Positions 47,164 to 50,296 of a stretch of DNA of 64,000 nt are shown in pieces (the first letter of the stretch is position 1; the number at the start of each line of letters is the position of its first letter). The stretch spans positions 2,914,001-2,978,000 of the forward strand of contig NZ_CP071596.1 of assembly GCF_017357105.1 (NCBI RefSeq). Reading direction: 5' to 3'. Origin of the DNA: Natronosalvus caseinilyticus (GTDB lineage Archaea; Halobacteriota; Halobacteria; Halobacteriales; Natrialbaceae). The notes below the pieces were generated by a model that saw nothing but the letters and a program-made list of their open reading frames with translations, ran no database searches and was not told the origin of the DNA. The position numbers and the translations under genes were made by a program.

Positions 47164-47265
47164 GTCACGACCAGAACGGCGGTACATAAAAACACCCGGT
47201 AGTCACGGGTTACAGGGGCGGGCGGTACGTTAAATAGTCCAGCGAGAGAAGGGGCAGGTGGAACG

Positions 47266-48423
47266 ATGAATATCGCCGATATCGCCACCACGGAGTACAT
47301 CGAGGTCGACGTCGGGACGCGAATGGGGAAAGTCCGTTCGACGTTCGAGGACGGCAACCCCAAGGGCCTGATCGTAACCGACGACGGAGAGTACGCTGGC
47401 GTCATCAGCGAACGCGAGGTGCTCCAGTCACACGTCGAAGACGACGCCAAGGTGGCGGCGTTGATCAAGCCGAGTCGCAACGACCCGGCCCCGAAAGTCG
47501 ACCGGCACGAGGACGTCCGGGAGGTCGCCCGCATGCTCGTCGAGGGCAACACCAAGGTCGCGCCGGTGTTCGAGGGCGACAACCTCTGGGGCGTCATCAC
47601 CGAGGACGACCTCCTCACCGCCGTCCTCGAGAACCTCGACGCGATCACCGTCGGCGACATCTACACCACCGACCCGATCACGCTCGCTGAGGACGACGGC
47701 GTCGGGAAGGCGATCAACCACCTGCGCGAACACGGCATCTCCCGACTCCCCGTGGTCAACGAGAACGGCTACCTGACCGGCGTCGTGACGACCCACGACA
47801 TCGCCGACTTCGTCATCCGGGAGAACGAGCGCATGACGACCGGCGACCGCGTCGGCGACAACCAGCGGATGCTCGACGTCCCGATCTACGACATCATGAA
47901 TAGCCCCGTGGTGACCACGACGGCGGACAAGACCGCTCGAGAGGCCGTCGAAACCATGCTCGAGAACGATTACGCCGGCCTCGTCGTCACGCCGACGGAC
48001 GACGACCGACTCATCGACGGCGTGATCACCAAGACCGACGTGCTCCGGGCGCTGACGTTCACCGAGGAAGAGCACATGGACGTCCAGATCACGAACATCT
48101 CGCTCATGGACACCATCTCCCGGGAGTCCATCGTCCAGAGCATCGAGCAGGTCTCCGACAAGTACGCGGACATGCAGGTCCACCACGCCCACGTCCGATT
48201 CCACGAGCACAAGGAGAAGCTCCGCGGCACGCCCCTGATCCAGTGTCAGATTCGCCTCCGGACGAACAAATCGCAGGTCGCCGGCTCCGGCGAGGGCTAC
48301 GGCGCGGAGAACTCGTTCCGCGTCGCCCTGGACAAACTCGAGCGAAACGTCTTAGAGCTCAAGGGCGTCCGCAGCGACGAGGAGTACCGCGGCCAGTTGC
48401 TCCGGAAGTTGAACGAACTCTAG
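47266..48423 (+). CDS. Four-CBS-domain protein with a C-terminal HPF/S30AE-like domain
   Basis: A 385-residue protein. Two CBS pairs cover about residues 1-60, 68-122, 128-187 and 205-265, with loops such as VITEDDLL, VVTTHDIA and VITKTDVL that bind adenine nucleotides. The last 115 residues (about 271-385) do not look like CBS. MDVQITNISLMDTISRESIV, HHAHVRFHEH, LIQCQIRLRT and AENSFRVALDKLERNVLELK follow the strand-helix-strand-strand-strand-helix order of the ribosome hibernation factor (RaiA/HPF) fold. It could couple ATP/AMP level to ribosome shut-down. The domain call is by eye. Confidence 0.8.
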   Translation: MNIADIATTEYIEVDVGTRMGKVRSTFEDGNPKGLIVTDDGEYAGVISEREVLQSHVEDDAKVAALIKPSRNDPAPKVDRHEDVREVARMLVEGNTKVAPVFEGDNLWGVITEDDLLTAVLENLDAITVGDIYTTDPITLAEDDGVGKAINHLREHGISRLPVVNENGYLTGVVTTHDIADFVIRENERMTTGDRVGDNQRMLDVPIYDIMNSPVVTTTADKTAREAVETMLENDYAGLVVTPTDDDRLIDGVITKTDVLRALTFTEEEHMDVQITNISLMDTISRESIVQSIEQVSDKYADMQVHHAHVRFHEHKEKLRGTPLIQCQIRLRTNKSQVAGSGEGYGAENSFRVALDKLERNVLELKGVRSDEEYRGQLLRKLNEL

Positions 48424-48506: not shown

Positions 48507-48686
48507 ATGCCCGCATTCAGAGATCAATCCTCCATCGTCAGCGTGCTCGGCTTGCTCGTCGCCATCGTCGCCATCGTCGGCACCCAGGTGCTCGGGTGGG
48601 AGTGGGGGTCCGGTCAGCTCGTGCCGACGATCATCGGCGTCGTCGCCACCATCGCCGTGCTCGTCGTCGTGCGGCGACTGGCATAA
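48507..48686 (+). CDS. Small 59-residue two-helix membrane protein
   Basis: ATG frame with two hydrophobic helices (about 10-28 and 40-56) separated by GWEWGSGQ, and a basic end RRLA. Codon use is haloarchaeal and it has its own promoter. It is convergent with radB, 4 bases apart. No known family recognised. Confidence 0.7.
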   Translation: MPAFRDQSSIVSVLGLLVAIVAIVGTQVLGWEWGSGQLVPTIIGVVATIAVLVVVRRLA

Positions 48687-48690
48687 GCCG

Positions 48691-49389
48691 CTACGGCCGA
48701 GCGTCGTCACTTCCCTCGAGTCCCGACCCCGTGATTCGGAACGTCACCGACTCGCCCGCCGGTTTCGAGCGGTGTTTCGTGAGCGTCGCCCGACGATTGC
48801 CGCCGCGGAACCGCTCGAGGCGGACCACCACGCCCGTCCAGTGCTCTAAGGTATTCCCACCGAGCGGGCGCGTCCGGTCGCTGTCCGGATCGGCGAACAC
48901 CTGATTCGTGACGACCACCGCGAGGTCGTGCTTGCGCGCGAGCGAGAGCAGATGGGTGATCTGGCTGGCCACCTGCCGGAGGGCGTCACCCGCCTCGCCG
49001 TCTTCGGCGCGCTCGATTCGGTAGAAGCCGGTCGCGCTGTCGAGGACGATCAGGTCGGCCTGGGTCGCGAAGTCCGCGGCGTCGCGGACGGCCTCGGCCT
49101 GTTCGTCGAAGTCGTAGGCGTCCTCGATGATGATCCGGGAGGCGACCGACTCGACGTCGTCGGTGCGAGCGGAGAGGAGTTGTTCGAACCGGTCGACCGA
49201 GACGCCCTCGGTGTCGATGAAGACGGCCGTGCCACCGGCGGCGGCCGTCTCGACGGCGGCCGACAGCGCGAGGTTCGTCTTACCCGACGCTGGCGGGCCG
49301 TACAACTGCGTGACGGCTCCGCGTTCGAACCCGCCCTCGAGCAACGCGTCGACCGGGGGACAGCCGGTCGATATCGCCTCGTCGTTCAC
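48691..49389 (-). CDS. radB: DNA repair and recombination protein RadB
   Basis: A 232-residue RecA-fold ATPase without the N-terminal helix-hairpin-helix domain of RadA. Walker A is GPPASGKTN and Walker B LIVLDSAT. RadB is an archaeal RadA paralog that helps RadA in recombination. GTG 49389 is chosen as start (VNDEAISTGCPPVDALLEGG), since that matches the family N-terminus; upstream codons in the frame run into the divergent promoter. It is divergent from a predicted RNase H-fold nuclease. Confidence 0.93.
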   Translation of the reverse strand: MNDEAISTGCPPVDALLEGGFERGAVTQLYGPPASGKTNLALSAAVETAAAGGTAVFIDTEGVSVDRFEQLLSARTDDVESVASRIIIEDAYDFDEQAEAVRDAADFATQADLIVLDSATGFYRIERAEDGEAGDALRQVASQITHLLSLARKHDLAVVVTNQVFADPDSDRTRPLGGNTLEHWTGVVVRLERFRGGNRRATLTKHRSKPAGESVTFRITGSGLEGSDDARP

Positions 49390-49462: not shown

Positions 49463-49483
49463 GGTGGCAGTCGAAGCGTGGGT

Positions 49484-50296
49484 ATGATCGTCGTCGCCAC
49501 CGCGGACTTCGAAGTGTACCACGAAGTCGTCGCCGACCTTCGCGATCGAGGCGCGACCTTCACGACGATCGAACCCGACGACCCGCTCCCGTCGAAAACC
49601 GTCGTCGTCCTCACCGGTGCGGAGCACGCCGAATCGTTCGCGGACGCCGACGCGCCGACTATCGTCGTGGACCCCGACGACAGCCGACAGGCGGTCGATC
49701 AGGCGCTCGCGACCATCCGCGGCGAGCACGGTCGAACCGTCGTCGGCGTCGATCCCGGACGCCAGCCCGGCATCGCCGTGCTCGCGGGGGAGACCGTCGT
49801 CGCCGCGTTCCAGGTGCCACTGGGCGACGCCGTCGACGTCGTCCTCGAGGAGGTCCGTGGCGACGACGCCGTCGACCCGGTCGTCCGCATCGGCGATGGG
49901 TCGCGCCTCGAGGGCGCCAAACTGATCAACGAACTCGAGGACGTCCGCGTCGAGATGGTCGACGAGACGGGGACGACGCCGTACCTCGGCACCGGTGCCA
50001 GAGGGATGGGTGACGTCCTCGCAGCGGTGAACATCGCCCGACTCGAGGGCGAGGCGATCGACACCCGCGAGATCGAACCGACGCCAGGAGAGCTCCAGGT
50101 GATCAAGGACCGCTCGCGCGAGCGAAGCGAGGCGAATCGGGCGATCGACGAGACCCTGGCCAGGCGAGTCGCGAGCGGCGAGTTGACGGTCGAGGAGGCG
50201 CTCGCGGTGCATCGAAACGATGTCGACGGTGAGGATAGCGGCGACGGGGGAGACAGCGCCGACGAAGAAGACGGCAGCGACGACGACGCGAACTGA
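49484..50296 (+). CDS. Predicted RNase H-fold (RuvC/YqgF-like) nuclease
   Basis: A 270-residue protein. After a small N-terminal alpha/beta domain (about 1-80), TVVGVDPGRQPGIAVL begins an RNase H-like fold with Asp90. Glu161 in MVDETGTT and Asp177 in GMGDVLAAVNIA fall where RuvC and YqgF have their other metal-binding acids, and DVLAAVNIA resembles the RuvC C-terminal helix. The tail (about 190-270) is charged and ends in an Asp/Gly/Ser-rich stretch. Next to radB, a role on recombination or replication intermediates is plausible. No biochemical data on this family are known to me. Confidence 0.75.
   Translation: MIVVATADFEVYHEVVADLRDRGATFTTIEPDDPLPSKTVVVLTGAEHAESFADADAPTIVVDPDDSRQAVDQALATIRGEHGRTVVGVDPGRQPGIAVLAGETVVAAFQVPLGDAVDVVLEEVRGDDAVDPVVRIGDGSRLEGAKLINELEDVRVEMVDETGTTPYLGTGARGMGDVLAAVNIARLEGEAIDTREIEPTPGELQVIKDRSRERSEANRAIDETLARRVASGELTVEEALAVHRNDVDGEDSGDGGDSADEEDGSDDDAN

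Follow-up and report, generated by a model that had tools for sequence, protein, structure and literature searches.

Archaeal ribosome hibernation was barely known before 2025-2026. The HibA family, described in Nat Commun on 27 April 2026, is defined by four CBS domains followed by an HPF/RaiA domain and is present in 47% of archaeal genomes (PMC13324472). Cryo-EM structures of the Pyrococcus abyssi protein are deposited as PDB entries 9SR9-9SRF and 9T7H. On the 30S subunit, the C-terminal domain occupies the mRNA/tRNA channel; on the 50S subunit, the CBS module is seen in three positions, in one of which a loop lies in the peptidyl-transferase centre (PTC). Most hibernating ribosomes of P. 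abyssi were found to carry HibA, and the factor inhibits translation in vitro; ribosome binding, translation inhibition and 70S preservation have been shown for the Thermococcales homologues. Deletion of hibA in Thermococcus barophilus lowered stationary-phase 70S ribosomes by ~60% and delayed regrowth (PMC13324472).

Two further systems are close to this family. HVO_2384 of Haloferax volcanii was described in October 2025 as a protein with tandem CBS domains and a ribosome hibernation domain; it is reported to carry two acetylated lysines in vivo, K311 and K313, and to co-purify with an inactive variant of Pat2 (PMC12607858). The hibernation factors Dri (Pyrobaculum) and SriA-D (Methanosarcina) also consist of CBS modules found on archaeal ribosomes, although by description they are without an HPF domain.

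The locus studied here lies in a stretch of 64,000 nucleotides from Natronosalvus caseinilyticus (the window). The open reading frame runs on the plus strand from an ATG at 47266 to a stop codon ending at 48423 and encodes 385 residues, exactly as in the original prediction. A phmmer search of the PDB returned two relatives over the whole length of the protein, 9l96_a (E 2.4e-63) and the P. abyssi HibA chain 9sr9_H (E 6.4e-47, residues 3-382). This full-length homology to a characterised member, read from sequence, indicates that the gene is very probably a haloarchaeal type A orthologue of hibA, whose product would silence and preserve idle 70S ribosomes as its homologues do. The proposed fusion of CBS and hibernation domains was borne out by four PF00571 matches, the HPF fold of the tail and the end-to-end alignment with P. 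abyssi HibA. The further suggestion of a new kind of control over haloarchaeal translation does not stand, because HibA (April 2026) and HVO_2384 (October 2025) had already been published. The family and the idea of a CBS/hibernation fusion are thus known, and the window protein adds a member. In a literature search, no haloarchaeal type A protein was seen to be described on ribosomes, and the solved haloarchaeal chain, 9L96, falls in the paralogous type B clade.

The window protein and the HibA of P. abyssi and T. barophilus have the same domain order, a similar length and the same PTC-loop length. The decoding-centre insertion and the TxxD motifs of CBS3 and CBS4 are common to the window and P. 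abyssi proteins. The window protein differs in being haloarchaeal and acidic, in its low identity to P. abyssi HibA, and in that it is known here from sequence; a T/S-x-D-like motif in CBS2 is kept in the haloarchaeal protein and absent from P. abyssi. HVO_2384 appears to be a type A orthologue by its size and by the presence of radB beside the Haloferax profundi orthologue. The latter (L092), the nearest Haloferax orthologue compared, is 66% identical to the window protein; its calculated mass and pI are 42,355 Da and 4.89, against the 42,521 and 4.87 reported for HVO_2384.

Upstream of the gene is a TATA-like box, TTAAATA (47230-47236, plus strand), and a similar element is found in several related loci. 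Its position ~30 bases 5′ of the start codon implies an mRNA that would be nearly leaderless.

The HPF/RaiA domain comprises residues 271-385 (48076-48420). The tail matched the Ribosomal_S30AE profile PF02482 with an E-value of 5.3e-4, but the score of 21.1 bits falls slightly short of the curated gathering cut-off of 23.7 bits. In the full protein the match covers residues 286-366 (E 0.0046, 18.1 bits), and the window protein was not among the listed matches of a whole-genome PF02482 scan. The NCBIfam HPF/YfiA family gave an E-value of 0.034 at best. PF02482 is also matched by 27 of 47 homologues (best E 3.3e-5), and a profile built from 37 archaeal tails placed bacterial HPF chains next after two archaeal ones in the PDB, with E-values from 0.0044. 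A generic profile search is insufficient by itself to recognise the HPF domain here.

Structure prediction gave the expected answer. When the full-length model was the Foldseek query, the CBS module dominated the matches, and the HPF domain was therefore modelled and searched alone. The AlphaFold2 model of the tail (pLDDT 83.9, pTM 0.74) has a strand at 272-276, a helix at 286-298, strands at 305-319, 322-333 and 337-345, and a helix at 347-384. HPF, YfiA, RaiA, RafH, MPY and PSRP1 chains head its Foldseek matches, with E-values of 4.5e-5 and upwards and TM-scores to 0.81 by target length. The closing HPF/RaiA pattern that had been named, AENSFRVALDKLER, is present as residues 347-360. The C-terminal domain of the window protein thus has the fold of bacterial HPF, RaiA and YfiA. 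These proteins differ in the absence of both a CBS module and the hairpin insertion at 318-324, and the sequence similarity of the window tail to bacterial HPF/RaiA is under the Pfam cut-off.

The CBS module (residues ~1-262, 47266-48051) contains four CBS stretches recognised by PF00571 (E 1.3e-43). Foldseek places its AlphaFold2 model close to the hibernation factors SriA-D and Dri of archaea, MJ1225 and AMPK gamma. A different origin for the protein, as a CBS-only archaeal regulator (a transcription factor, HhpR-like, CM-3) carrying an unrelated tail, would draw on the weak resemblance of the CBS region to HhpR in NCBIfam. That similarity scores 42 bits where the cut-off is 520, and with a tail of HPF fold on a protein homologous to HibA throughout, such a regulator is extremely improbable. 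As a transcription regulator made of CBS domains only, it was ruled out by the full-length HibA homology and the fold of the tail.

The PTC loop of the window protein, residues 187-204 of the third CBS domain (47824-47877; P. abyssi 190-207), is equal in length to that of P. abyssi, and its residues R195, G197, R201 and D204 are invariant in 128 type A sequences. The CBS3 ribose motif T175-x-x-D178 (47788-47799) and the CBS4 ribose motif T255-x-x-D258 (48028-48039) form the two halves of a predicted AMP/ATP site. T175 and D178 occur in all 128 type A sequences as well as in the P. abyssi protein, and neither T255 nor D258 varies among the 128 type A and the 20 type B sequences. The nucleotide of P. 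abyssi HibA is located between CBS3 and CBS4, and the module binds AMP, ADP and ATP with Kd values of 12, 65 and 113 uM, respectively (PMC13324472). A single AMP-preferring site between CBS3 and CBS4 may be expected in the window protein as well.

The same site bears on the idea of an energy-sensing ribosome silencer. The silencing half of that claim agrees with the behaviour of the HibA family, which is found on idle ribosomes and inhibits translation. The sensing half fared less well, as in P. abyssi no clear effect of AMP or ATP was seen, either on binding to ribosomes or on how the conformations were distributed (PMC13324472). A direct energy switch, with ribosome binding when the AMP/ATP ratio rises and release when it falls, is a refinement of the HibA explanation and not an alternative to it. 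The invariance of both TxxD motifs and the preference of the P. abyssi module for AMP speak for such a switch. Set against the P. abyssi binding results, in which ATP gave only a weak extra conformational state (PMC13324472), it is possible but rather doubtful.

By analogy with P. abyssi, the HPF/RaiA domain of the window protein would most likely lie in the 30S mRNA/tRNA channel, with its hairpin at 318-324 reaching uS12 and the decoding centre. On the 50S subunit, the CBS module would take tRNA sites that are vacant, and the loop at 187-204 would be able to reach into the peptidyl-transferase centre. In cells in stationary phase or under stress, the predicted outcome is that idle 70S ribosomes are silenced and preserved, with possible tuning by lysine acetylation at K316 and K318 and by partners such as RadB.

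The hairpin is an archaeal-specific insertion, 318-KLRGTPL-324 (48217-48237), which aligns with 324-KFRGVHL-330 of P. abyssi and is absent from bacterial HPF. In P. abyssi this insertion touches uS12 and the decoding centre (PMC13324472). The HPF domain is strongly conserved, most of all at this hairpin, and E317 and R320 rank among the most conserved residues. The region of the first archaeal-specific insertion (P. abyssi 283-SAL-285) is present in type A proteins, one residue shorter. The K311 and K313 of HVO_2384, reported as acetylated, correspond to K316 and K318 of the window protein (48211-48219), where the decoding-centre hairpin begins, as mapped through the close relative from H. profundi and not through HVO_2384 itself. 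Lysine is found at position 316 in 97 of the 128 type A sequences and at 318 in 109. Deletion of the insertions did not lower inhibition by P. abyssi HibA, and a regulatory role of the acetylated hairpin is therefore hypothetical.

The next recognised gene downstream of hibA in the window is radB, in convergent orientation (48691-49389, minus strand; NCBIfam RadB equivalog, E 1.7e-125). Its reading frame is open to 49614, with a likely GTG start at ~49389. A 59-residue hydrophobic reading frame between the two genes (48507-48686) was not conserved in related loci. On the other side of radB, a plus-strand neighbour (49478-50296) has no Pfam or NCBIfam match and carries the motif VGVDPGRQPGIAVLAG; it occurs in 49 of 80 loci, mostly by radB.

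Seven haloarchaeal families were sampled for this arrangement. In four of them, a convergent radB follows hibA at a distance of up to 6 kb in 36/36, 9/9, 45/47 and 5/5 of the genomes with both on the same contig, while in the other three it is so in 0/11, 0/3 and 0/1. Pab0961, the HibA of P. abyssi, was reported to co-purify with RadB, GINS23 and a Sir2 deacylase; for Hvo_2384, an in vivo interaction with RadA and RadB was noted as a personal communication (PMC3820547). Ribosomes may therefore not be the sole target of these proteins. The convergent synteny fits the reported HibA-RadB interactions; by itself, it is no proof of a functional link.

These interactions, together with the synteny in four families, would also suit a protein whose main role, as a CBS-type regulator, lies in DNA recombination or replication. 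Such a protein would bind RadB, RadA or GINS under modulation by adenine nucleotides, its HPF-like tail being a protein-binding relic. A relic is hard to reconcile with the strong conservation of the HPF domain, above all at the decoding-centre hairpin, and P. abyssi HibA, an inhibitor of translation, was detected on the majority of hibernating ribosomes (PMC13324472). The arrangement itself is seen in none of the 15 genomes of the three other families; genes in convergent orientation do not share a transcript, and gene order can outlast function. A main role in recombination or replication is consequently judged quite improbable, and ribosome hibernation by a HibA orthologue is the preferred reading of the locus.

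The C-terminal domain was found in 193 of 194 Halobacteria genomes, with at least two matches in 63, and hibA is therefore near-universal in this class. The class includes the genetically tractable Haloferax, in which the acetylated lysines, the interaction with RadB and the function of the plasmid-borne paralogue are open to direct testing. Near-universality together with a type B paralogue, the mapping of K316 and K318 and the radB synteny are the additions to published work. In the phylogenetic tree, type A (the window protein and its orthologues) is separated from type B (P0002, 9L96 and others) with an SH-aLRT of 100, both inside one haloarchaeal clade. This division was not found in the main texts consulted, though the supplementary data on Halobacteria of PMC13324472 may already give it. 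No paper behind PDB 9L96 was found in a literature search.

Type B proteins have the same architecture of four CBS domains and an HPF domain. They differ from type A in their separate clade (~40% identity), a longer loop, a longer basic C-terminal tail and a frequent location on megaplasmids. The stretch that contains the loop is 36-47 residues in type B against 22 in 126 of the 128 type A sequences, and the type B PTC loop is ~14-25 residues longer. One genome (L179) holds only a single B-like intermediate. A protein encoded by plasmid pHME505 of Haloferax mediterranei has the same sequence as 9L96 (100% identity); this species has a chromosomal type A gene and two type B genes on plasmids. 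Overall, 38 of the 40 plasmid records among the matches listed hold a full-length relative at 42-100% identity. Some type B copies sit on large chromosomal contigs. It is unusual for megaplasmids to carry a ribosome hibernation factor, and the point lends itself to immediate checking.

For type A, only one plasmid record was found at E < 1e-120, and a 13-kb stretch there is identical to the chromosome of the same organism. In Natronorubrum bangense (L020, L079), the hibA-radB region is present as an exact copy of 13,155 bases on the chromosome and on an 828-kb plasmid, which is either a recent duplication or an assembly artefact.

The two types could be arranged in two tiers. The first would be a universal chromosomal type A beside radB, with an acetylation-switched decoding-centre hairpin and hibernation linked to RadA/RadB-dependent recombination. 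The second would be an accessory, often megaplasmid-borne type B, whose Gly/Ser-rich loop (~14-25 residues longer) reaches further into the peptidyl-transferase centre or exit tunnel. As a whole, this scheme is speculative and considered unlikely.

The window genome has a second HibA of type B, P0002, which is 402 residues long and encoded on the minus strand of a 230-kb contig, C2 (L011:4245-5453). It carries a lengthened Gly/Ser-rich loop and a basic C-terminal tail. In one haloarchaeal genome, type B and type A hibA genes are in tandem, less than 100 bases apart (G049:C11:50225-52575). At ~2 kb from the type B paralogue of the window genome lies a long CRISPR-like array (L011:1-2500) of at least 30 repeats of GATTCAGACGTACCCTTGTGGGGTTGAAGC at a spacing of ~65.
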